64,000 nt of DNA from Streptomyces sp. NBC_01669 (GTDB lineage Bacteria; Actinomycetota; Actinomycetes; Streptomycetales; Streptomycetaceae). Location of the stretch: the NCBI RefSeq assembly GCF_026339735.1, contig NZ_JAPEQG010000001.1, positions 2,666,001-2,730,000 of the forward strand, written 5' to 3'. Of this stretch, positions 1,269-27,491 are shown piece by piece. A program made the translations under genes and the position numbers. Positions within the stretch are counted from its first letter, which is position 1. Each line of letters starts with the position of its first letter. The notes below the pieces were generated by a model. It was not told the origin of the DNA, ran no database searches, and saw nothing but the letters and a program-made list of their open reading frames with translations.

Positions 1269-3164
1269 TCAGGCATACAGGGGGTTGGCGATGGTGACAT
1301 AGACGGACTGAGTGTCGACGGGGCCGACGAGTTCGTCGAGACCGTGCAGTCGGGTCAGCATGTTGGCCTTGCACCGCAGGTGCGGGTTCTGCAGCAGCTG
1401 CGCGGGAAGCGGGGAGCCGAGGCCGGTGACACCGCCGAGGAACCGGCGGAGGCCGGCGATGAGCACTCGTTCATCGGCGAGATGCTCGGCGCCGAAGGCT
1501 CCGATCAGACCGAAGATGTTGTTGATGCCCAGGTAGTAAGCGAAGCGCTCGTCGGTGACCGCATCGGAGACGAAGGTGTCGCTGACGGTTCCGATGCCGG
1601 GGAGCCTCTGCTCAAGTGCTGGGCGATGCGATTCGCGGAAATAGTAGCCCTGGTTGTCCCGATACCGGCCCCCGATGGGCCAGCCGGCGGCGTCGAGCAG
1701 CACCAGCGTGTTCTGCTGGTGGGCTTCCAGGGCGACGCCTGCTGTGGCATCGAGCCACAGCACGGGGCGCACGACCCGGTCGAGGTAGCGCAGGAACCAC
1801 TCGGCGGCGACCGCTCCCTTGGTTCTGCCGGTGGAGGCAGCGAGGCGGAAGACGATGTCGGCGAGGCGCGATTGCATGCCTGGCCGGTCGGACCAGGGGC
1901 GCGGGGAAGTCAGCCCGGCGACGCACACCGCATCGTCGTGCGGGCCGAAGGGGTTGTGACGCAGCATGACATCGAGGCCGGGGACGGGTTCGCCACCCGG
2001 TGTGTCGACGGCGAGCCAGGCCGGGTCGCGAACGACGTCGAAGCCGGGGTGGACGGCATGCCACTGCGCAGCGAGTCCACTGCGGAGCAGCCGGTGGACC
2101 TCCACGCCCCGGTGAAGTTCCTTGCGGAGATTCTCACGACGAGAGTTGGTGATGCGTACGCCGAGGGAGAGCTTGAGCATGACGTCGGCGCCGGACCGAT
2201 GGACGGTACGGACGGAGGAGGTGGGGTGCCAGGGCTCGCCGTGCGGTCCCAGGTCATGGAGAAGACCGGCTTCGAGCAAGGCCGCGACGTCAGGACGGCT
2301 GCCCAGTTCCCGTGCCTGCCAGGGGTGGAGCGGAATCGGTGCCGTGTTGGCGGGGACGTGCAGTCCGTCGGCGTGGGAGGCGACGAGGTCTTCGGCGGGG
2401 ACGGGGCGGCCTCCGTCCGTCCAGGAGGAATCGGTGGCCAGCAAGGAGCGGTCCACAGCCATCCAGTGCAGCGGGAAGGATCCGTGCAACTCCGGTGAGT
2501 AGAGCCGGGATTCGGCCTCGGAGATGCCTTCGCGGCTCTTGGGGCTGGGGTGCAGGGGATGGCCCAGCAAAAGCGACTGCTCGGCGGTGAGGAAGAGGTC
2601 CGAGTCGGCGGGAGGCGCGGGTGCGCGGCGTCGCTCGGCGATGAAACCGGCTGTACGGCGTACGGAGTCGGCGACCCTGGCCACCATGTCGGCGCCTTCG
2701 TTGCGGTCCGCCTCGCGCCCCAGGAGGGCGGCAACGGTGACGGCATCGGCGGTCGGGGCCTCGTCGGGCGCGTGCTCCAGGTTCGGCGGGCCGAAGCGGT
2801 GCCATCCCGTGGCGGACCAATAGAGGGCGGGGACGAGCAGGGCGGTGCCGCTGGCGGGAAGCGGGATGCGGAGAGTGTTCCCGTCGGGTCGGGGCAGATC
2901 GTTCTCGCGGACCCAGCAGCGCAGCAGGTTCTCGACGCCTGATGCGTCTGCCGCCCGGAGCGGGTCCGGGTGGTCGAGAGGATCGGCCGTTCCTGCGCTG
3001 GCAGGGGGTGCCTGCGGAGTACACCGCTCGCCATGGAGGGCTGCCATCTGGCGCGGCACCGTCGTCTGCTCGACTGCCACTCGGCCGACGAGCACGGACT
3101 GGCCTCGTTGCTGGCCGACGGGGGCGCCGTCGGCCTCGGGCGCGGGCGCGGGGGTGGGGTTCAC
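1269..3164 (-). CDS. IucA/IucC family NIS siderophore synthetase
   Basis: A 631-residue protein, about the usual synthetase length plus a Pro/Ala-rich N-terminal extension of some 60 residues that may mean the true start is internal; the GTG at 3164 has only a weak AAAGA upstream. Family landmarks in order: GHPLHPSPKSREG (residues ~220-232), LHPWQ, SSVRTV, LKLSLGVRITNSRREN (ATP/citrate-binding core), HQQNTLVLLD and RYRDNQGYYFRES near the C-terminus. The FhuF-like C-terminal region is present. It follows the aminotransferase by 29 bp and precedes the acetyltransferase by 61 bp, so all are probably co-transcribed. Predicted to ligate one citrate carboxylate to the hydroxamate amine (RhbC/IucA-like position); substrate inferred from neighbours only. 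Confidence 0.85.
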   Translation of the reverse strand: MNPTPAPAPEADGAPVGQQRGQSVLVGRVAVEQTTVPRQMAALHGERCTPQAPPASAGTADPLDHPDPLRAADASGVENLLRCWVRENDLPRPDGNTLRIPLPASGTALLVPALYWSATGWHRFGPPNLEHAPDEAPTADAVTVAALLGREADRNEGADMVARVADSVRRTAGFIAERRRAPAPPADSDLFLTAEQSLLLGHPLHPSPKSREGISEAESRLYSPELHGSFPLHWMAVDRSLLATDSSWTDGGRPVPAEDLVASHADGLHVPANTAPIPLHPWQARELGSRPDVAALLEAGLLHDLGPHGEPWHPTSSVRTVHRSGADVMLKLSLGVRITNSRRENLRKELHRGVEVHRLLRSGLAAQWHAVHPGFDVVRDPAWLAVDTPGGEPVPGLDVMLRHNPFGPHDDAVCVAGLTSPRPWSDRPGMQSRLADIVFRLAASTGRTKGAVAAEWFLRYLDRVVRPVLWLDATAGVALEAHQQNTLVLLDAAGWPIGGRYRDNQGYYFRESHRPALEQRLPGIGTVSDTFVSDAVTDERFAYYLGINNIFGLIGAFGAEHLADERVLIAGLRRFLGGVTGLGSPLPAQLLQNPHLRCKANMLTRLHGLDELVGPVDTQSVYVTIANPLYA

Positions 3165-17295: not shown

Positions 17296-18798
17296 TCAGT
17301 CGCACCCGCAGCCGGGAGCCGCCGCGGGCGGCAGCGGCGCCGGGGCGCCGATGCCGGGCAGCCCCAGCATCACTCCGGCCGGCTTGGCGGCCTCGGCGAC
17401 GGTGCGCCTCTCCCAGGCGTCCCCGGACCGGGTCCGCCTCACGCCGAGCGGCGCGCCCTCGGCGAGCAGGTGGTGCGGGGCGGCGTAGGTGATCTCGACC
17501 GTCACCACATCGCCGGGGCGCACGTCCTCCTCCGGCTTGGTGAAGTGGACCAGACGGTTGTCGGGAGCACGGCCGGAGAGACGGTGTGTGGCGCCGTCCT
17601 TACGGCCCTCGCCCTCAGCGACCATGATCTCCAGGGTGCGGCCGACCTGCTTCTTGTTCTCGTCCCAGGAGATCTCCTCCTGGAGGGCGGACAGGCGCAT
17701 GTACCGCTCCTGGACGACCTCCTTCGGGATCTGCCCCTCCATGTCGGCAGCCGGAGTTCCGGGCCGCTTGGAGTACTGGAAGGTGAAGGCGTTGGCGAAG
17801 CGCGCCTGGCGGACCGCGTGCATGGTCTGCTCGAAGTCCTCCTCCGTCTCGCCGGGGAAGCCCACGATGATGTCGGTGGAGATGGCGGCGTCCGGCATCG
17901 CGGCGCGTACCTTCTCGATGATGCCGAGGAACCGCTCCTGCCGGTACGAGCGCCGCATCGCCTTCAGGATCGTGTCCGAACCCGACTGCATCGGCATGTG
18001 CAGCTGCGGCATGACGTTCGGTGTCTCGGCCATCGCCGCGATCACGTCGTCAGTGAAGTCGCGGGGGTGCGGCGAAGTGAAGCGCACCCGCTCCAGGCCC
18101 TCGATCTTCCCGCAGGCGCGCAGCAGCTTGGAGAAGGCCTCGCGGTCGCCGATGTCGGAGCCGTACGCGTTCACGTTCTGGCCGAGCAGGGTGATCTCGG
18201 AGACTCCCTCGGCGACCAGTGCCTCGATCTCGGCCAGGATGTCGCCGGTGCGACGGTCCTTCTCCTTGCCGCGCAGCGCCGGGACGATGCAGAAGGTGCA
18301 GGTGTTGTTGCAGCCGACGGAGATGGAGACCCACGCGGCGTAGGCGGACTCGCGGCGGGTCGGGAGGGTGGAGGGGAAGGCCTCCAGGGATTCGGCGATC
18401 TCGATCTGCGCCTCCTCCTGGATACGGGCGCGCTCCAGAAGCACCGGCAGCTTGCCGATGTTGTGCGTTCCGAAGACGACGTCGACCCATGGGGCCCGCT
18501 GGACAATCGTGTCGCGGTCCTTCTGCGCCAGACAGCCGCCGACCGCGATCTGCATCCCGGGCCGCTTCGTCTTCATCGGGGCAAGCCGGCCGAGATTGCC
18601 GTAGAGCTTGTTGTCCGCGTTCTCCCGCACCGCGCAGGTGTTGAAGACGACGACATCGGCGTCACCGTCGGCGCCCTCGGGCGCACGTACGTACCCCGCG
18701 CCCTCCAGCAGCCCCGACAGCCGCTCGGAGTCGTGGACGTTCATCTGGCACCCGTAGGTGCGCACCTCGTACGTTTTCAAACCCTCTACCTCGCTCAT
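17296..18798 (-). CDS. miaB: tRNA-2-methylthio-N6-dimethylallyladenosine synthase MiaB
   Basis: 500 residues from ATG 18798 ([20 protein letters not shown]); in-frame upstream starts would add 37 residues, and one GTG at about 18834 has GAGGGG before it, so the start is moderately certain. The auxiliary cluster cysteines are Cys17, Cys55 and Cys89, and the radical SAM motif is C163-x3-C167-x2-C170 ([13 protein letters not shown]). A TRAM domain lies at about 390-460, and the extreme C-terminus is Pro/Ala-rich ending in CGCD. Adds a methylthio group to i6A37 made by MiaA. First gene of a unit with the LigB-like protein. Confidence 0.93.
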
Positions 18799-18896
18799 CT
18801 CGTCCACCAGGGTACGAGGTCGTACGGACACCCCGGGCCCCTCTTCCACAGGACCGGCCCTGGCCATCACGAGGAGTGAGCTGGCAGGATCGCGCC

Positions 18897-19895
18897 ATGC
18901 TCCACGCACTGTCCCGTATCGGCCGCCGACGCACTCTTCAGGGGGGCGCCGCCGTTGCCGTCGTTCTCGGGCTGCTGCTGTGGTGGGTGCTGCCGCTCGG
19001 GGATCCGCCGCCGAGCGGATCGCTGACCTTCAGCACGGGGGTGCGCAGCGGGGTCTACCACCGCTACGGCGAGCGGCTCAGGGGAGCGCTCGCCAAAGAC
19101 CTGCCCAGGGTCTCGATACGGCTGCAGACCAGCGAGGGCTCCCAGCAGAACATCGAGCGGGTGGCGACCGGGAAGGCCGACTTCACCATCGCCACGACCG
19201 ATGCCCTCGCCACATATCTACGGGACGGCAAGGCAGGGGCCGACCGGCTGCGCGGCTGTGTCCGGCTGTACGACGACTACATCCAGCTGGTGGTGCCCCG
19301 GGACTCGGACGTGCAGACCGTCTCGGATCTCGCCGGCAAGCGGATCGGGGTGGGGCAGAAGGGTTCGGGCGTGCGGTTGGTCGCCGACCGGCTGATGACC
19401 GCCGCGGGTCTTGATCCGACGCACGGCATCACCCCGGTCCCGGCCGGGATCGACACGATGCCGACGCAGTTGCAGAACGGTCTTCTCGATGCCTTCTTCT
19501 GGTCCGGCGGGCTGCCGACCACCGCTGTGCAGGAGCTGTCGGACCGCTTCCCGATCAGGCTGGTGCCCCTGGAGGCATCGCTGATCAAGCGGCTGCGGGC
19601 CGGGGGCGACCCCACCCGCTACTACCGCTCGGCCGTGATGCCTGCCGACGCGTACCGCAGCGCCCAGCAGGGATCGGCCATCACGACGGTGGCCGTCGCC
19701 AACGTGCTGGTCACCACGGACCGCACGGATCCGGCGATGACCGAGGCGTTCACCCGGACGGTGATCGACAGCCGGGACCGCATCGGAAGCGAGGTACATG
19801 CGGCGCAGCTGGTGGATCTGCGGACGGCGATCTACACCGATCCGCTGGAGCTGCACGACGGGGCCAGACGCTACTACCGGTCGGTCAAGCCCTGA
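18897..19895 (+). CDS. TAXI family TRAP-type solute-binding protein (orphan)
   Basis: 332 residues from ATG 18897 with AGGATCG upstream; the GTG at 18876 is too close to its purine run. A single N-terminal membrane segment ([18 protein letters not shown], residues ~17-34) has no lipobox, so the protein is probably anchored or secreted. The body fits the TAXI group: [70 protein letters not shown]. No DctQ/DctM membrane genes are nearby, so it cannot be a conventional TRAP importer on its own. It converges with the sensor kinase gene of the glutamate module, 43 bp away. A TAXI protein of Thermus binds glutamate/glutamine (from memory). Confidence 0.85.
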
Positions 19896-19938
19896 CGCAC
19901 TCCGTCGGGGTGCGCCGTCGCGGCACCCGGTACCGGAG

Positions 19939-21333
19939 TCAGTCGCTCGGACCGTTGCGCGGAACCGCCACCGTCACCCGCAGTCCGTGCGGCTCGTGCG
20001 GGGCGTAGGAGAGAGAGCCGCCGCCCGCGGCGAGCAGTGCGTGGGAGATGGAGAGCCCGAGACCGGACCCCTGCACGTTCTGGTGCTGGGCGCTGCGCCA
20101 GAAGCGGTCGCCGATCCGCTCCAGCTCCTCGTCGGTCAGCCCCGGGCCGCGGTCGGCGACGGCCACGGTGACGGTGTCGCGGCCGGCCGCGACGGTGACA
20201 CGGACCTCTTCACCGGCGGGGGTGAACTTGCACGCGTTGTCGATGACGGCGTCGAGGGCGCTGGACAACGCGATGGGGTCCGCCCAGGCTGTCACGGCGG
20301 ATGCCCCGTCGGCCGTCAGCCGTACACCGTTCTCCTCCGCGAACGGGCGCCAGGAAGCCACCCGTTCCGCGGTGAGCGCGCCGATGTCGGTGAGCTGGAG
20401 GTCGGCCGCGGCGTGCTCGGCCAGCGCAAGGTCCAGCAGGTCGTCCAGGACCTGCCCGAGGCGCTTTCCCTCCGTGCGGACGGAGGCGATCTCCTCGTTC
20501 CCCTCGGGAAGTTCGAGGGCGAGGAGCTCGATGCGCAGCAGCAGCGCGGCGAGGGGGTTGCGCAGTTGGTGCGAGGCGTCGGCGACGAAAGCGCGCTGCT
20601 GCTCCAGCACTTCCTCGACGTTGTCGGCCATCTCGTTGAACGAACGGGCCAGGCGTCTGAGTTCCGGTGGACCTCCCGATGCCACCACCCTGGACCGCAT
20701 CCGACCACTGGCGATGTCGTGGGTCGCCGCGTCCAGGGTCTGGACGGGCAGGAGGACCCAGCCGGTGAGCCGGATCGCGGCGCCGACGGCCACCAGCATC
20801 GCGACCACCTCACCGGCCGCGATCAGCAGCCAGCCGCGCAGCGTGTGGGTGCGCATCTCACCGGTGGGCGAGTCGAGGACGACGACGGCGACCACATCGC
20901 CGTCCCGTACGACGGGCGAGGCGACGACGACCCGGCCGCGCTGCCAGGGCCAGACCTGCGGCGGATCATGACTGCGTCGCCCGAGGAGCGCCTCCCTGAA
21001 CGCCTCGCGGCCCGCCCCCACGAAAGGGAGCCGCCAGTCGGCCGGTGCCTTCGCCATGGCGGTGTCGTCGCGGTAGAAGACGCCGGCCCGGATTCCGTAC
21101 ACCGAGTCGTACATCTCCAGCTCCGACTGGAGCACGCGGCGCCGTTCGTCGTTGCTGCCGATCGGTTCCGTGACGAACTGGGCCAGTGCGGCGAAGCGCG
21201 CCGTGTCGTCGATGCGATCGATCACCACGCTCTGCTGCTGGGCGGCGGCCACGCTCACGGCCAGCGGAAAGCCGAGCGCGAGCAGCACGGCCGCCATGAG
21301 GATGATGAGCAGGGGGAGGAGACGGGTACGCAC
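19939..21333 (-). CDS. gluK: Sensor histidine kinase, GluK-like
   Basis: 464 residues; GTG start 15 bp after the response regulator stop. TM1 at ~5-31, extracytoplasmic sensor ~32-165 (holding the SVYGIRAGVFYRDD stretch), TM2 ~168-197, HAMP, then HisKA with phospho-acceptor His255 (DASHQLRNP) and HATPase with N-box DNACKFTPAG, DRGPGLTDEE and GSGLGLSISHALL. All kinase motifs are intact. Located next to gluABCD and divergent from it, as recalled for the glutamate-sensing GluR-GluK system of S. coelicolor, which controls gluABCD and antibiotic production. Naming rests on synteny; the ligand is inferred. Confidence 0.85.
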   Translation of the reverse strand: MRTRLLPLLIILMAAVLLALGFPLAVSVAAAQQQSVVIDRIDDTARFAALAQFVTEPIGSNDERRRVLQSELEMYDSVYGIRAGVFYRDDTAMAKAPADWRLPFVGAGREAFREALLGRRSHDPPQVWPWQRGRVVVASPVVRDGDVVAVVVLDSPTGEMRTHTLRGWLLIAAGEVVAMLVAVGAAIRLTGWVLLPVQTLDAATHDIASGRMRSRVVASGGPPELRRLARSFNEMADNVEEVLEQQRAFVADASHQLRNPLAALLLRIELLALELPEGNEEIASVRTEGKRLGQVLDDLLDLALAEHAAADLQLTDIGALTAERVASWRPFAEENGVRLTADGASAVTAWADPIALSSALDAVIDNACKFTPAGEEVRVTVAAGRDTVTVAVADRGPGLTDEELERIGDRFWRSAQHQNVQGSGLGLSISHALLAAGGGSLSYAPHEPHGLRVTVAVPRNGPSD

Positions 21334-21348
21334 CGGGGCCCTACGCCT

Positions 21349-22041
21349 TTACGCGGACGGGGCGACGAGCCGGTAGCCGACCCCGCGCACGGTCTCGATC
21401 AGTGCGGGCAGCCGCAGCTTGGAACGCAGGGACGCGACATGCACTTCGAGCGTGCGCCCCGTTCCCTCCCAACTCGTGCGCCACACCTCGCTGATGATCT
21501 GCTCCCGGCGGAACACCACACCGGGGCGCTGGGCGAGGAGCGCGAGCAGATCAAACTCCTTGCGGGTGAGCTGGACTTCGGCGCCGTCGACACTGACCCT
21601 GCGGGTCGGCAGCTCGATGTGGACATGACCGAGGCGCAGGGCGGCGACGGGCGTCTGCACCGTGTCCTCCCCGACCGACTTGCGCCTGCTGACGGCATGG
21701 ATACGCGCGAGGAGTTCACCGGTGTCGTACGGCTTGACGACGTAGTCGTCCGCTCCGAGGTTGAGGCCGTGGATCCGCGACCGAACATCGGCCCGCGCGG
21801 TCACCATGATCACGGGGATGGAACAGCGCTTGCGGATCTTCCCGCAGACCTCGTAACCGTCCTGGTCGGGCAGTCCGAGGTCGAGGAGCACGACGCCGAA
21901 GGGCTCTGTGTCCGCCGGCAGCAGGGCCTTCAGGGCCTCCTCGCCGCTGCGTGCGTGCACAACCTGAATGCCGTGCCGGGCGAGCACCGCGGACAGGGCG
22001 GCCGCCACGTGGTTGTCGTCCTCGACGAGCAGCAGCCTCAT
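21349..22041 (-). CDS. gluR: OmpR-family response regulator, GluR-like
   Basis: 230 residues from ATG 22041 (MRLLLVEDDNHVAAALS) with AGGAGGG just upstream; longer starts add an unrelated basic stretch. Receiver domain with phospho-Asp54 (VVLLDLGLP) and Lys103 (DDYVVKPYD); C-terminal winged helix shows RKEFDLLALLAQRPGVVF and RTLEVHVASLRSKLR with VRGVGYRL. It is transcribed with the kinase gene, and its start is 340 bp from the divergent gluA start; the region between holds helically phased CCCGGTAC repeats suited to an OmpR-type dimer. Predicted to control the adjacent glutamate importer. Confidence 0.88.
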   Translation of the reverse strand: MRLLLVEDDNHVAAALSAVLARHGIQVVHARSGEEALKALLPADTEPFGVVLLDLGLPDQDGYEVCGKIRKRCSIPVIMVTARADVRSRIHGLNLGADDYVVKPYDTGELLARIHAVSRRKSVGEDTVQTPVAALRLGHVHIELPTRRVSVDGAEVQLTRKEFDLLALLAQRPGVVFRREQIISEVWRTSWEGTGRTLEVHVASLRSKLRLPALIETVRGVGYRLVAPSA

Positions 22042-22381
22042 GGCCCTCCTCTCTCTCCGCTTTCGCATCGTGGTGCAGGCTTCCCGCACTCCCCGGTGAC
22101 TGTCCATCTTCCCGGTACTTCCCCGTACCGAGGTGTTTCACGTCATCACGTACCAGGGCATCCACTCCGATGACCGGTACGCCAGTCAAGAGCCCACCTA
22201 TTACATCGGGGTTTCCGTTATGCACCCGGTACGCCCCCGGTACCTCTCCCGCCGTCCCGTTCACGCGGAGTGTCCGGTTGCCGCCGGATCGTTATGCTCA
22301 ATTTCCGCTCAGATGTAATGACGGTGGTCGCACTGCGTCACTAAGGTCCTTCCCAACCGAGGAGGACGGAGCAAAAAGCCG
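22042..22381. promoter_or_regulatory. gluR/gluA divergent control region with CCGGTAC repeats
   Basis: 340 bp without a gene. CCCGGTAC occurs twice as direct repeats at 22225-22232 and 22236-22243 (11-bp period, one helical turn). CGGTAC/GTACCG form an inverted repeat at 22113-22130, and another CGGTAC lies at 22175-22180. A strong RBS (GAGGAGGACGGAG) precedes gluA. The tandem 11-bp repeats are typical of OmpR-family operators; assignment to GluR is inference. Confidence 0.5.
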
Positions 22382-23167
22382 ATGAGCGGAGTTTCAGTGA
22401 CCAAGGCCGCCGAGGATGCCGTACCCGCGGCGAACGACCTTGTCGTACTGAGCAACGTCAACAAGCACTTCGGCGCGCTGCATGTGCTCCAGGACATCGA
22501 CCTGACCATCGCACGGGGCGAGGTCGTGGTTGTGATCGGACCTTCCGGGTCCGGAAAGTCCACGCTGTGCCGCACGATCAACCGCTTGGAGACGATCGAC
22601 TCGGGCGCGATATCGATCGACGGCAAGCCGTTGCCCCAGGAGGGCAAGGAGCTGGCCAGGCTGCGTGCCGATGTCGGCATGGTCTTCCAGTCGTTCAATC
22701 TCTTCGCGCACAAGACGGTGCTCGAAAACGTGATGCTGGGGCAGCTCAAGGTCCGCAAAGCGGACAAGACGGCTGCCGAGGAGAAGGCGCGTTCGCTGCT
22801 CGACCGGGTGGGCGTGGCGACGCAGGCCGACAAGTACCCCTCGCAGCTCTCCGGAGGCCAGCAGCAACGTGTGGCCATCGCACGGGCGTTGGCGATGGAC
22901 CCCAAGGTCATGCTCTTCGACGAGCCGACGTCCGCGCTCGACCCGGAGATGATCAATGAGGTGCTGGAAGTCATGCAGCAGCTCGCCCGGGACGGCATGA
23001 CCATGGTCGTCGTCACCCACGAAATGGGCTTCGCGCGCTCGGCGGCGAACCGTGTCGTCTTCATGGCGGACGGGAAGATCGTCGAAGAGGCGGCGCCCGA
23101 CCAGTTCTTCAGCAACCCGCGCAGTGACCGGGCCAAGGACTTCCTTTCGAAGATCCTGCACCACTGA
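22382..23167 (+). CDS. gluA: Glutamate ABC importer ATPase
   Basis: 261 residues. Walker [10 protein letters not shown] (53-61), Q-loop VFQSFNL, signature [10 protein letters not shown] (156-165) and Walker [14 protein letters not shown] with H-loop VVTHEMGF: the complete polar amino-acid importer (PAAT) ATPase. First gene of gluABCD; followed 51 bp later by the binding lipoprotein. It energises high-affinity uptake of glutamate, as shown for the homologous operon in Corynebacterium and Streptomyces. A strong GAGGAGGA ribosome binding site is located upstream of the ATG, and the divergent GluR-GluK pair next door probably senses the same ligand. Confidence 0.93.
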
Positions 23168-23218
23168 TTTCCGGATCAGCTGTTCACTCACATCACGTCA
23201 ACTCTAGGGAAGTTCACC

Positions 23219-24061
23219 ATGCAGCTTCGTAAGGTCACCGCCGCATCGGCCGCCGTGCTCGCGCTCGCCCTCACCGCCACCGCCTGTGGCTCCTCCGACG
23301 ACAAGGGCGGCGACTCGGCCGGCGGCGGCAAGAAGATCAACATCGGCATCAAGATCGACCAGCCCGGTATCGGTCTGAAGACGCCCGACGGCAAGTACAC
23401 CGGTTTCGACGTCGATGTCGCCACGTACATCGCCAAGGAACTCGGTTACGACGCCAAGGACATCACCTTCAAGGAGACGAAGAGCGCCGACCGCGAGACG
23501 GCGATCGAGCGCGGGGACGTCAAGTTCATCGCCGCCTCCTACTCGATCAACGACGAGCGTCTGCAGAAGGTCGACTTCGCCGGCCCGTACCTGCTGGCGC
23601 ACCAGGACATCCTGGTCCGTGCCGACGACGACTCGTTCAAGTCCCCGGCCGACCTGAACAGCAAGAAGCTCTGCTCGGTCGCCGGCTCGACCTCGGCGCA
23701 GAACGTCCATGACAAGCTGGCTCCGAAGGCCCAGCTCCAGGAGTACGGTGGCTACTCGGAGTGCCTCACCGGTCTGGAGAGCAAGGCCGTCGACGCGCTG
23801 ACCACGGACGACAGCATCCTGGCCGGCTTCGCCTCGCAGAAGGACTTCCAGGGGAAGTTCAAGCTGGCCGGCTTCCAGATGAGCAACGAGAACTACGGCA
23901 TCGGCCTGAAGAAGGGCGACGCCGACCTCAAGAAGAAGATCAACGACGCGCTCACCCAGATGGTCTCGGACGGCTCCTGGGACAAGGCGGTGAAGGCCAA
24001 CTTCGGTCCGGCGAACTACAAGAACGAGCCCGCCCCGAAGATCGGCAACATCGTCAAGTGA
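23219..24061 (+). CDS. gluB: Glutamate-binding lipoprotein
   Basis: 280 residues. Signal peptide with lipobox LTATAC (Cys at ~23), then Gly/Lys-rich linker and a periplasmic-binding-protein class 3 fold: INIGIKIDQPGIGLKTPDG, FDVDVATYIAKELGY, ETAIERGDVKFIAASYSI, VDFAGPYLLAHQDILV. It is the extracytoplasmic receptor for the gluABCD importer. The lysine-rich, AAG-heavy codon use suggests strong expression. An RNA hairpin immediately downstream may help keep its message more abundant than the permease part. Polar amino-acid specificity is certain by family; glutamate by synteny and residue pattern. Confidence 0.93.
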   Translation: MQLRKVTAASAAVLALALTATACGSSDDKGGDSAGGGKKINIGIKIDQPGIGLKTPDGKYTGFDVDVATYIAKELGYDAKDITFKETKSADRETAIERGDVKFIAASYSINDERLQKVDFAGPYLLAHQDILVRADDDSFKSPADLNSKKLCSVAGSTSAQNVHDKLAPKAQLQEYGGYSECLTGLESKAVDALTTDDSILAGFASQKDFQGKFKLAGFQMSNENYGIGLKKGDADLKKKINDALTQMVSDGSWDKAVKANFGPANYKNEPAPKIGNIVK

Positions 24062-24075
24062 AGCAGGGCTGACGA

Positions 24076-24104
24076 GGCGCGCCGTCCGTGAACGGCGGCG
24101 CGCC
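24076..24104 (+). terminator. Intra-operon hairpin between gluB and gluC
   Basis: Two GGCGCGCC palindromes at 24076-24083 and 24097-24104 pair around a CCGT/ACGG inner stem, just after the gluB stop. Likely an attenuator or 3' stabiliser rather than a full terminator because gluC has no evident own promoter. Confidence 0.5.
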
Positions 24105-24136
24105 ATGCCCTCCTACACGCGGAAGCGCGGGAGATC

Positions 24137-24802
24137 GTGTTCGACTTTCTTGAAGGTTACGACCTGCTGGGGGCCTTCTGGGTGACGGTGCAACTCGCCG
24201 TCTACTCCGCCCTCGGCTCCCTCATATGGGGAACGCTGCTGGCCGGCATGAAGGTCAGCCCAGTCCCCCTGATGCGCGGTTTCGCCACCGCCTATGTGAA
24301 CGTCATCCGGAACATCCCTCTGACCGTCATCATCGTCTTCTCGTCGCTGGGTCTCTTCCAGACGCTCAACATCCAGCTCGGGGCCAGCGACTTCACGGAC
24401 ATCAACTTCCGGCTCGCGGTGCTCGCGCTGGTCGTCTACACCTCCGCGTTCGTCTGTGAGGCGCTCCGGTCGGGCATCAACACCGTGCCCGTCGGCCAGG
24501 CGGAGGCGGCGCGCGCCCTCGGACTGAGCTTCACGCAGGTGCTGCGTCTGATCATCCTCCCGCAGGCCTTCCGCTCGGTCGTCAACCCGCTGGCCAATGT
24601 TCTGATCGCGCTCACGAAGAACACCACGGTCGCCGCCGCGATCGGCGTGGCCGAAGCCGCATACCTGATGAAGGGCATGATCGAGAAGGAGGCGCAGCTG
24701 ATCCTGATCTCCGCCGTCTTCGCGTTCGGATTCATCTGTCTGACCCTCCCGACCGGCCTGATCCTCGGCTGGGTGAGCAAGAAGGTGGCGGTGAAGCGAT
24801 GA
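24137..24802 (+). CDS. gluC: Glutamate ABC importer permease subunit
   Basis: 221 residues, GTG start with GGGAG four bases upstream. Four to five membrane helices (LGAFWVTVQLAVYSALGSLIWG; VIRNIPLTVIIVFSSLG) and the permease EAA loop (EALRSGINTVPVGQAEAARALG) are present, as in HisM/GlnP proteins. Ends by overlapping the start of gluD by 4 nt (GATGA), so translation is coupled. Forms the membrane pore with gluD. Confidence 0.92.
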   Translation: MFDFLEGYDLLGAFWVTVQLAVYSALGSLIWGTLLAGMKVSPVPLMRGFATAYVNVIRNIPLTVIIVFSSLGLFQTLNIQLGASDFTDINFRLAVLALVVYTSAFVCEALRSGINTVPVGQAEAARALGLSFTQVLRLIILPQAFRSVVNPLANVLIALTKNTTVAAAIGVAEAAYLMKGMIEKEAQLILISAVFAFGFICLTLPTGLILGWVSKKVAVKR

Positions 24803-25698
24803 CTTCCGTCCTCTATGACGCCCAGGGGCCGCGCGCCAAGCAGCGCAACATCGTCTACACGGTCCTGTTCCTGCTCGTCGCCGCTGCCGTCGTGTGGTGG
24901 GTGTACGACGGCCTGGCTGCCAAGCACCAGCTCGACTGGATCAAGTGGAAGCCGTTCTTCACCAGCTCCCAGCCCTGGCAGACCTACATCTGGCCGGGTC
25001 TGCAGAACACCCTGAAGGCAGCGGCGTTCGCCCTGGTCATCGCGCTGCCGCTGGGTGCCCTGTTCGGTATCGGCCGGCTCTCGGACCACCGGTGGGTGCG
25101 GATGCCGGCCGGCGTGGTCGTGGAGTTCTTCCGCGCCATCCCGGTGCTGATCCTGATGATCACTGCGAACGCGGCGTACTCCGAGTACACGACCATCAGC
25201 AGCGACTCCCGCCCGATGTACGCCGTGGTCACGGGTCTGGTGCTGTACAACGCCTCGGTGCTCGCCGAGATCGTGCGGGCCGGGATCCAGTCCCTCCCCA
25301 ACGGACAGACGGACGCGGCCAAGGCGATCGGTATGCGCAAGGGCCAGACCATGCTGTACGTGCTGCTGCCGCAGTCCGTGACGGCCATGCTGCCCGCGAT
25401 CGTCAGCCAGATCGTCGTCATCGTGAAGGACACCGCCCTCGGCGGCGCGGTGCTGACCTTCCCCGAGCTTCTGGCATCGGTCCGTCCGATGAGCGCGAAC
25501 TACGGTGCGAACACCATCGCGTGCTTCACGATCGTCGCTCTGATCTACATCGTGGTGAACTTCGCGCTCACCTCGTTCGCGGGCTGGCTGGAGGGTCGGC
25601 TGCGGCGCGGCAAGAAGAGCACGGGCGCCGCACCCGCCGGTGGTCTGGAGACCATCGGTGCGCCGGCGCTCATCATCGATGACGGACGCGCCGTCTGA
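24799..25698 (+). CDS. gluD: Glutamate ABC importer permease subunit
   Basis: 299 residues starting at the ATG overlapping the gluC stop codon. N-terminal TM (ivytvlfllvaaavvwwvy), then a large extracellular loop, PNTLKAAAFALVIALPLG-type helices and the EAA motif (ivragiqslpngqtdaakaigm). C-terminal tail carries a Lys/Arg cluster. Companion permease of GluC; last gene of the operon. A perfect 26-bp palindrome about 25 bp downstream should end the transcript. Confidence 0.92.
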   Translation: MTSVLYDAQGPRAKQRNIVYTVLFLLVAAAVVWWVYDGLAAKHQLDWIKWKPFFTSSQPWQTYIWPGLQNTLKAAAFALVIALPLGALFGIGRLSDHRWVRMPAGVVVEFFRAIPVLILMITANAAYSEYTTISSDSRPMYAVVTGLVLYNASVLAEIVRAGIQSLPNGQTDAAKAIGMRKGQTMLYVLLPQSVTAMLPAIVSQIVVIVKDTALGGAVLTFPELLASVRPMSANYGANTIACFTIVALIYIVVNFALTSFAGWLEGRLRRGKKSTGAAPAGGLETIGAPALIIDDGRAV

Positions 25699-25723
25699 CG
25701 GTTCGTCGGCAATCTCTGCGCAG

Positions 25724-25749
25724 GGGCGCCGGTGCATGCACCGGCGCCC
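25724..25749 (+). terminator. Perfect 26-bp palindrome after gluD
   Basis: Uninterrupted palindrome, 13-bp arms GGGCGCCGGTGCA / TGCACCGGCGCCC, 26 bp after the gluD stop. Confidence 0.75.
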
Positions 25750-25874
25750 TTCGCCGTGCTCGGGTATCACTTGACGCAAGCACCGGCAGTGGGTTGCATA
25801 CGTTCTGTGATCGCCGACCGAGCCCCCGCTTCCGCTTCCACTCCTCCGACCGCACGGGCCCAGGGAGTCGCGCC

Positions 25875-27491
25875 GTGGACCCGGTGATCGTCGTCGGCGC
25901 CGGGCCCGTCGGCCTGACGCTGTCGCTCGCCCTCGCCGCGCAGGGCGTTCCCTCCGTCGTCCTCGACGAGGATCCGGGGAGGGACGAGACCCGTCCCGCC
26001 CGGACGGTGGTGCTGCGCGAGGACACCGCGGCCCTGGTGGAGCGGCTCGGGTGCAAGACGCTCCGGCACGAGGGCGCCCATTGGACGGGCTGGCGCTCCA
26101 TGCGCCGCAAGCAGCTGGTACGCGAACTGCGCCTCGGCGAGGACTCCCCGCACGGTGATCCGCTCCCGGCCCCGCTCCATCTGCCCCAGCACGCCCTGAT
26201 GCGCGGACTGCGGGCCGCGGTCGCCGGGCAGGAGCTCGTACACATGGCGCCGCTCAGCCGGATCGACACCCTTGAGCAGGATCCGGCAGGGGTCACGGTG
26301 CACACCAGGGAACCCGATTCGACCTGGTGGCGCGGGAGTTACCTGGTCGGCTGCGACGGCGCCAGATCCACCGTCCGCAAGCTCCTGGACATCAGGTTCC
26401 CGGGGCGCACAGCGGTGGAGCGGCACGCCGTCGCCGCGCTGCGCACCGATCTGCCCTGGCCAGGCGAGGCCGTGCTGCACCGGCTGCCGCCGTGGCGCAC
26501 CGGGGGCGCCGAGGTCACCGCGCGCCCGCTGCCGGACGGTGCGTGGCGGCTGGACTGGCTCCTCCCGCCACGCGGCGAGCTCGTCACCCCCGACGCCCTG
26601 ATCACCCGGGTGCGGGACACTCTCGCGGGCTGGTGCGGCGGCGAGACCCCGCCGTACGAACTGCTGGACACGGGCGTGTACACGCTGCATCACCGGCTGG
26701 CCCGGCGCTGGCGGGTCCAGCGGGCGTTCCTTGCCGGGGACGCCGCCCATCTGCTCGGTGCACTCGGTACGCAGGGGCTCGACGAAGGGCTGCGGGACGC
26801 CGAGAACCTGGCCTGGAAGCTGGCGCAGGCCTGGCATCACGGAGCCTCCGACGTGCTGCTCGACAGCTACCAGGCGGAGCGCCGGGCCGCGGTCGCCTCC
26901 CGGCTGCGCGCGGCGGACCAGTCGCTGCCGATACTGCGCGGCGGCGGAGGACTGCGGACCATCGTCCCAGGGAGCGCACGGGGGCACGATTCACTGCTGG
27001 CCGACGGTCACCTGGGGTGCGGCCCACTGGGTGCGCCCCCCTCGTACTCGCACTCTCCCCTTGCGCCTGCGTACGTGGAGGCGCACACATCGGTGGCTAC
27101 GCCCCCGGGCACGCCGGTCGACGATGTACGGGTGACGGCGCCCGACGGCACGACCGTACGGCTGCGCGAGCGGCTGGGGCGGGGCCGTCTGCTGGTCGTG
27201 CTGGTCGCTCCGGGGACCGGGGTGTGGGACCGGCGCCACTGGTTGACCGCGGGCGTGATGCCCCGGCTCGTCGAGACGGTCGACGCCCTGCCGATGAGGG
27301 GGGAGCTGCTGGTGACCGAGGCCTACCCGGGTGCCCCGGCCCATACCGTGCTGCTGATCAGGCCGGACGGGAATCTGGTGGCATCGTTCGGCGGGGTCCG
27401 GCCCGCGGAAATTTTCGAGGCGGCGGACGCGGTGCGCGGCGGTGCGCCACGTGCCTCCGTACGCTCCGACCGGACCGCGGACATCAATTGA
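25875..27491 (+). CDS. FAD-dependent aromatic monooxygenase (PheA/TfdB type)
   Basis: 538 residues from GTG 25875 with CAGGGAG eight bases before it; upstream in-frame starts lack the family's first residues. Dinucleotide-binding VIVVGAGPVGLTLSLALAAQG at the N-terminus, DG motif YLVGCDGARSTVRK, and GD motif FLAGDAAHLLGALGTQG, then a C-terminal thioredoxin-like domain (~420-538). This fits flavoprotein hydroxylases of aromatic substrates. Stands alone between gluD and the cysteine dioxygenase gene. No gene neighbours reveal the substrate; a secondary-metabolism or aromatic catabolic role are both possible. Confidence 0.85.
   Translation: MDPVIVVGAGPVGLTLSLALAAQGVPSVVLDEDPGRDETRPARTVVLREDTAALVERLGCKTLRHEGAHWTGWRSMRRKQLVRELRLGEDSPHGDPLPAPLHLPQHALMRGLRAAVAGQELVHMAPLSRIDTLEQDPAGVTVHTREPDSTWWRGSYLVGCDGARSTVRKLLDIRFPGRTAVERHAVAALRTDLPWPGEAVLHRLPPWRTGGAEVTARPLPDGAWRLDWLLPPRGELVTPDALITRVRDTLAGWCGGETPPYELLDTGVYTLHHRLARRWRVQRAFLAGDAAHLLGALGTQGLDEGLRDAENLAWKLAQAWHHGASDVLLDSYQAERRAAVASRLRAADQSLPILRGGGGLRTIVPGSARGHDSLLADGHLGCGPLGAPPSYSHSPLAPAYVEAHTSVATPPGTPVDDVRVTAPDGTTVRLRERLGRGRLLVVLVAPGTGVWDRRHWLTAGVMPRLVETVDALPMRGELLVTEAYPGAPAHTVLLIRPDGNLVASFGGVRPAEIFEAADAVRGGAPRASVRSDRTADIN

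Follow-up and report, generated by a model that had tools for sequence, protein, structure and literature searches.

Where between gluR and gluA does the response regulator GluR bind, and does the same kind of operator serve the transporter operon and the regulator's own gene? The locus lies in a window of 64,000 nucleotides from Streptomyces sp. NBC_01669, the whole stretch of DNA that was analysed. On the minus strand, gluR (21349..22041, with the start at 22041 picked by homology) encodes an OmpR-family response regulator of 230 aa with Response_reg and Trans_reg_C domains, and gluK (19939..21333) a sensor histidine kinase with HAMP, HisKA and HATPase_c domains. The plus strand carries gluA for the ABC transporter ATPase (22382..23167, ABC_tran), gluB for a solute-binding protein of family 3 (23219..24061, SBP_bac_3), and gluC and gluD for the permeases (24137..25698, i.e., 24137-24802 and 24799-25698, with BPD_transp_1 in both). 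By reading frames and domain search, gluR-gluK is divergent from gluA, gluB and the two permease genes in the GluR-GluK/gluABCD arrangement, and the domains confirm the setting given in an earlier note on this DNA, that of a region flanked by the gene of an OmpR-family regulator and, divergent from it, an operon for an amino-acid ABC transporter. Among the best 80 of at least 593 matching stretches, the gluR relatives are equal in length and lie beside gluA in 80/80 kept loci; in the same 80/80 Streptomyces loci gluA is divergent from gluR. The gluR-gluA coding stretches group with Streptomyces in a tree, the nearest relative (L004) having 93% identity. NCBIfam gave nothing above cut-offs for GluR, GluK, GluA and GluB and only the general model TIGR01726 for the permeases, so that the gene names rest on synteny.

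The counterparts in Streptomyces coelicolor are presumably SCO5778-5779 (GluR-GluK) and SCO5774-5777 (gluABCD), and in both modules the genes for an OmpR-type regulator and a kinase run divergently from a glutamate-type ABC operon of four genes. Passages of two reviews (PMC9739842, PMC10345050) present the module as known in S. coelicolor, with glutamate sensing by GluK, glutamate uptake, and regulation of gluABCD by GluR via a motif upstream of gluA. The module itself is already known and its operators are of an ordinary kind. A literature search with the locus tags or with CTCAGATG and Streptomyces listed no paper on this promoter beyond these reviews and transcriptome papers.

The earlier note had placed an operator, likely for GluR, on a pair of CCCGGTAC words accompanied by CGGTAC and its inverted form. 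All of these words are present where they were placed, with CCCGGTAC at 22225-22232 and 22236-22243 in the stated 11-bp period, CGGTAC at 22113 and 22175, and GTACCG at 22125-22130; a third copy of CCCGGTAC at 22111 had been left uncounted. They are also frequent locally. The window holds 11 copies of CCCGGTAC (1.86 expected) and 67 of CGGTAC (19.7 expected from dinucleotide shuffles, about threefold over-represented), and such frequent local words can mimic phased operators. Positional conservation was scored within +/-3 bases of the place set by the gluR -35, which was possible in 79/80 relatives (L071 has no gluR -35 and was left out), and the gluA-proximal 190 bases were aligned across the fetched loci besides. 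This cross-species comparison, named beforehand as one that could refute the proposal, was survived by the first CCCGGTAC and failed by the second and by the outlying copies: exact CCCGGTAC at 22225 is kept in 29/79 relatives, while the second at 22236 is found in 0/79 and CCGGTA at 22237 in 2/79. The conserved partner of the 22225 copy is CCGTTA at 22215 (66/79), with CCGGTA or CCGATA at 22226 in 69/79. The copies of CGGTAC at 22175 and 22113 and of GTACCG at 22125, which had been counted as operator parts, recur in 1/79 relatives each and are treated as incidental.

It is extremely improbable that the CCCGGTAC doublet at 22225 and 22236 is the GluR dimer site for gluA. Its period is exactly 11 bp and it is the sole such doublet in the genome, where CCCGGTAC pairs with 2-4 bases between them occur 3 times in 10.8 Mb. 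However, the second half-site is absent from all scored relatives, and on this conservation the doublet was rejected as an operator; its distance to gluA varies from genus to genus, and a different repeat described below, box B, fits a GluR site for gluA better. The second CCCGGTAC (22236..22243, plus strand) is a third unit in the 11-bp register that exists in this genome only. The OmpR-type layout therefore holds in part: 11-bp direct repeats are present, one of them including the first CCCGGTAC, and the second CCCGGTAC is not the conserved partner.

A conserved element of 20 bp, box A (TTCCGTTATGCACCCGGTAC, 22213..22232, listed without a strand), has the first CCCGGTAC as its downstream half, and in it CCGTTA (22215-22220) and CCGGTA (22226-22231) form an 11-bp direct repeat. 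The two half-sites are thus about 11 bp apart on one strand, as in an OmpR-type operator. Conservation was counted in 101 distinct Streptomyces intergenics, the window included, after dropping L094 (identical to L070) and L110 and L111 (the same loci as L130 and L129); L113 and L114, from another family, were counted apart. A putative gluR -35, CTTGAC (22185..22190, minus strand; GTCAAG on the plus strand), is found by the script's rule in 99/101 of them. In 96/101, box A matches 11 or more of the 13 consensus letters and the gluR -35 is present; of these 96, box A starts 29 bp from the TTGAC-like -35 in 59 and 30 bp from it in 37. The remaining five comprise three with the same distance of 29 or 30 and lower box A scores, and two without a box A or -35 match by the script's rule. 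The exact degenerate box A pattern occurs in 60/81 Streptomyces genomes with at most two matches in any, and a reversed-pattern control in 0/81; the genome under study has one exact copy and one more match at 2 mismatches.

The element extends beyond the genus. A family search gave a match in 129/150 genomes, from which 40 further loci were picked, 36 from 13 other Streptomycetaceae genera and 4 from Streptomyces. In 27 of these, 29-31 bp separate the half-site core of box A from GTCAA, and in 3 (L200, L201, L214) the distance is 19 bp, one helical turn less. The remaining 10 have no such core in that register, and 7 of them have no GTCAA either. Its second half-site is degenerate in genera g105 and g113. 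Box A is taken as part of the gluR promoter because of its fixed distance of 29 or 30 bp to the gluR -35 and because it is kept where no gluA is adjacent; the promoter is itself assigned from sequence, and box A would be its upstream element. The repeat flagged in the earlier note thus keeps a constant distance to the gluR promoter and not to gluA. A reading in which box A is no regulator site at all and instead belongs to an extended or second gluR promoter, as an UP-like or alternative sigma element, could draw on the fixed distance to the putative -35 and on the joint loss of both in 7 of the 40 further loci, yet a bound dimer accounts better for the 11-bp direct repeat and for the displacement by one turn to 19 bp, and we regard it as improbable. 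Box A most likely serves GluR autoregulation, or else is the site of another regulator.

The best candidate for the GluR operator of gluABCD, as judged from sequence, is box B, CTCAATT-N4-CTCAGAT (22297..22314, plus strand), which falls outside the coordinates flagged in the earlier note. It is an 11-bp direct repeat, and its core CTCA-N7-CTCA is present in 101/101 Streptomyces intergenics, with half-sites about 10-11 bp apart on one strand as in an OmpR-type operator. Box B abuts a putative gluA -35, ATGACG (22318..22323, plus strand), which is followed by a putative -10, TAAGGT (22342..22347, plus strand; TAnnnT within +/-1 base in 101/101). Counted from the start of the second half-site, TGAC stands 11 bases on in 92/101 intergenics (AGAC in the other 9), and all 101 have a TAnnnT hexamer 33-35 bases on. 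The predicted start of gluA transcription would lie near 22354. A generic scan for sigma-70 promoters and terminators in 22000-22450 found none, and Rfam at gathering score found no RNA family in 18000-27000. PhoB/PhoP-type operators of OmpR-family regulators consist of 11-bp direct repeats, with a site directly next to the -35 of the promoter under activation, and the PhoP half-site is GTTCACC. Boxes A and B resemble them in the 11-bp direct repeats and in the one site, box B, that abuts a putative -35, and differ from PhoP in their half-sites, CTCARAT and CCGTTA/CCGGTA. The GluR binding motif reportedly given in the primary paper, Li et al. 2017 in J Bacteriol, may be box B, box A or both, and box A might be described there as an element of the gluR promoter, so that box B is not claimed as unpublished.

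Gene losses in nature set the two boxes apart. Among the 40 further loci, box B is present in 33/33 with an adjacent gluA and in 0/7 without, and 5 of the 7 fetched loci that have gluR and no adjacent gluA keep box A (L187, L188, L189, L213 and L216) in the absence of box B. No exact box B pattern was found beside the other gluA-like genes of these five. The other two of the 7 (L205, L206) have neither box, and L207 has the gluR -35 and no box A. The opposite loss is seen at two gluR paralogs without gluA (L120, L121), where box B is kept and box A is absent. In a distant genus of another family (L113, L114), a GluR of 55-56% identity stands beside a divergent gluA with CTCAAGT-N4-CTCAAAC. By eye, the reading frame beside gluR in L187, L188 and L213 resembles an FAD-binding protein.

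The model that we slightly favour has two separate OmpR-type operators, box B for activation of gluABCD by phosphorylated GluR and box A for gluR, most likely in GluR autoregulation. It is built on the sequence of the boxes, on their spacing and conservation, and on their having been lost separately, and from these we infer binding, promoters and direction of control. Glutamate would activate GluK; phosphorylated GluR would then bind box B at the edge of the -35 and recruit polymerase to gluA, and GluR would also control its own promoter through box A, in a direction that the sequence does not predict. Two testable operators thereby replace a mis-paired repeat, and the GluR regulon and autoregulation become testable with short probes, even if the interest beyond Streptomyces nitrogen regulation is limited.

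The binder of box A is the weakest link of this model because the half-sites of box A are unlike those of box B, although CGTTATG at the edge of box B (22290..22296, plus strand, in conserved alignment columns) resembles the first half of box A. That CCGTTA and CCGGTA differ from CTCARAT argues against GluR reading both boxes. The loci with neither box (L205, L206), the -35 lacking a box A in L207, and the five loci with box A whose other gluA-like genes have no exact box B beside them also count against the model. It is a plausible though less probable reading that box B alone is the GluR operator and that another regulator bound at box A sets gluRK expression, as the half-sites differ and box A is absent from distant and paralogous GluR loci that have box B. 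Other inputs to the locus do exist, since gluABCD is reported to be stimulated by glucose (PMC4848846) and transcription of SCO5776-5777 to be raised in an argR mutant (PMC3293853). However, for a regulator of many targets one would expect more sites than the single exact box A here and the at most two in any of 81 genomes, and the locus yielded no gene for another regulator.

The two-operator model could be completed, if only tentatively, by GluR reading operators that differ in sequence on the two sides of the intergenic region: CTCARAT repeats in front of the transporter operon and, for gluR itself, CCGTTA/CCGGTA repeats. The composite half-site CGTTATG-CTCA at the upstream edge of box B might be the link, its first part being kept in box A and its second in the inner repeat of box B; the two proposals are doubtful together. 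The protein side bears on box B. TLEVHVASLR[SA]KL is found in the recognition-helix region of 6/7 compared GluR proteins with box B nearby (the exception, L120, has TLHVHVASLRTKL), and SLEVHV[GA][SA]IR[RK]K in 4/4 compared GluR proteins without box B. The GluR of the distant genus, beside box B and gluA, has a nearly identical recognition helix. This split fits with GluR recognizing box B, although relatedness alone could give an equal split. Three GluR proteins (L113, L114 and L121) have nearly the same recognition helix, yet no box A, which speaks against GluR as the binder of box A.

Within Streptomyces the distance between the boxes falls largely into two classes, with 81-84 bp in 64 and 91-94 bp in 28 of 96 intergenics and 75, 108, 119 and 192 bp once each. 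On a tree built from 81 loci, 5 changes are required to explain the longer class, which hinted at a rule of helical phase. Distances of 48 to 164 bp in other genera and of 243 bp in one further Streptomyces are too wide a range outside the Streptomyces set, and a general phase rule was dropped. The GlnR-like words GAAAC-N6-GTAAT were noted by eye only on the minus strand near 22200, in a stretch that varies in the alignment. An imperfect inverted repeat, TCCGGT-N4-GCCGGA (22273..22288, unstranded), lies upstream of box B and appears in relatives as TCCGAT-N4-ATCGGA. In column counts over 81 loci, columns -31/-24 hold GC in 34 and AT in 33, giving 67 complementary loci against a shuffle mean of 36; this covariation may be one clade split, and the other five column pairs are not clearly above shuffles.

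Elsewhere in the genomes, the exact relaxed box B pattern occurs in 79/81 Streptomyces genomes, but a reversed control also gives scattered matches, so that a match far from glu genes is not taken as a target. The genome under study has two more box B-like sites at 1 mismatch (L158, L159), with no glu gene there by tblastn. In other genomes CTCAGATGTGACTCAAGT recurs (L153 and L154 were read); it lies just past a stop codon, next to a terminator-like repeat, and was left aside. In L153, L154 and L160, a CTCAGAT/CTCAAGT repeat lies 3' of a stop codon with a GC-rich inverted repeat behind it and is probably unrelated. Two loci that lack a neighbouring gluR (L151, minus strand near 3098; L234, plus strand at 1501) have box B upstream of genes for solute-binding proteins, which hints at a GluR regulon that acts in trans.
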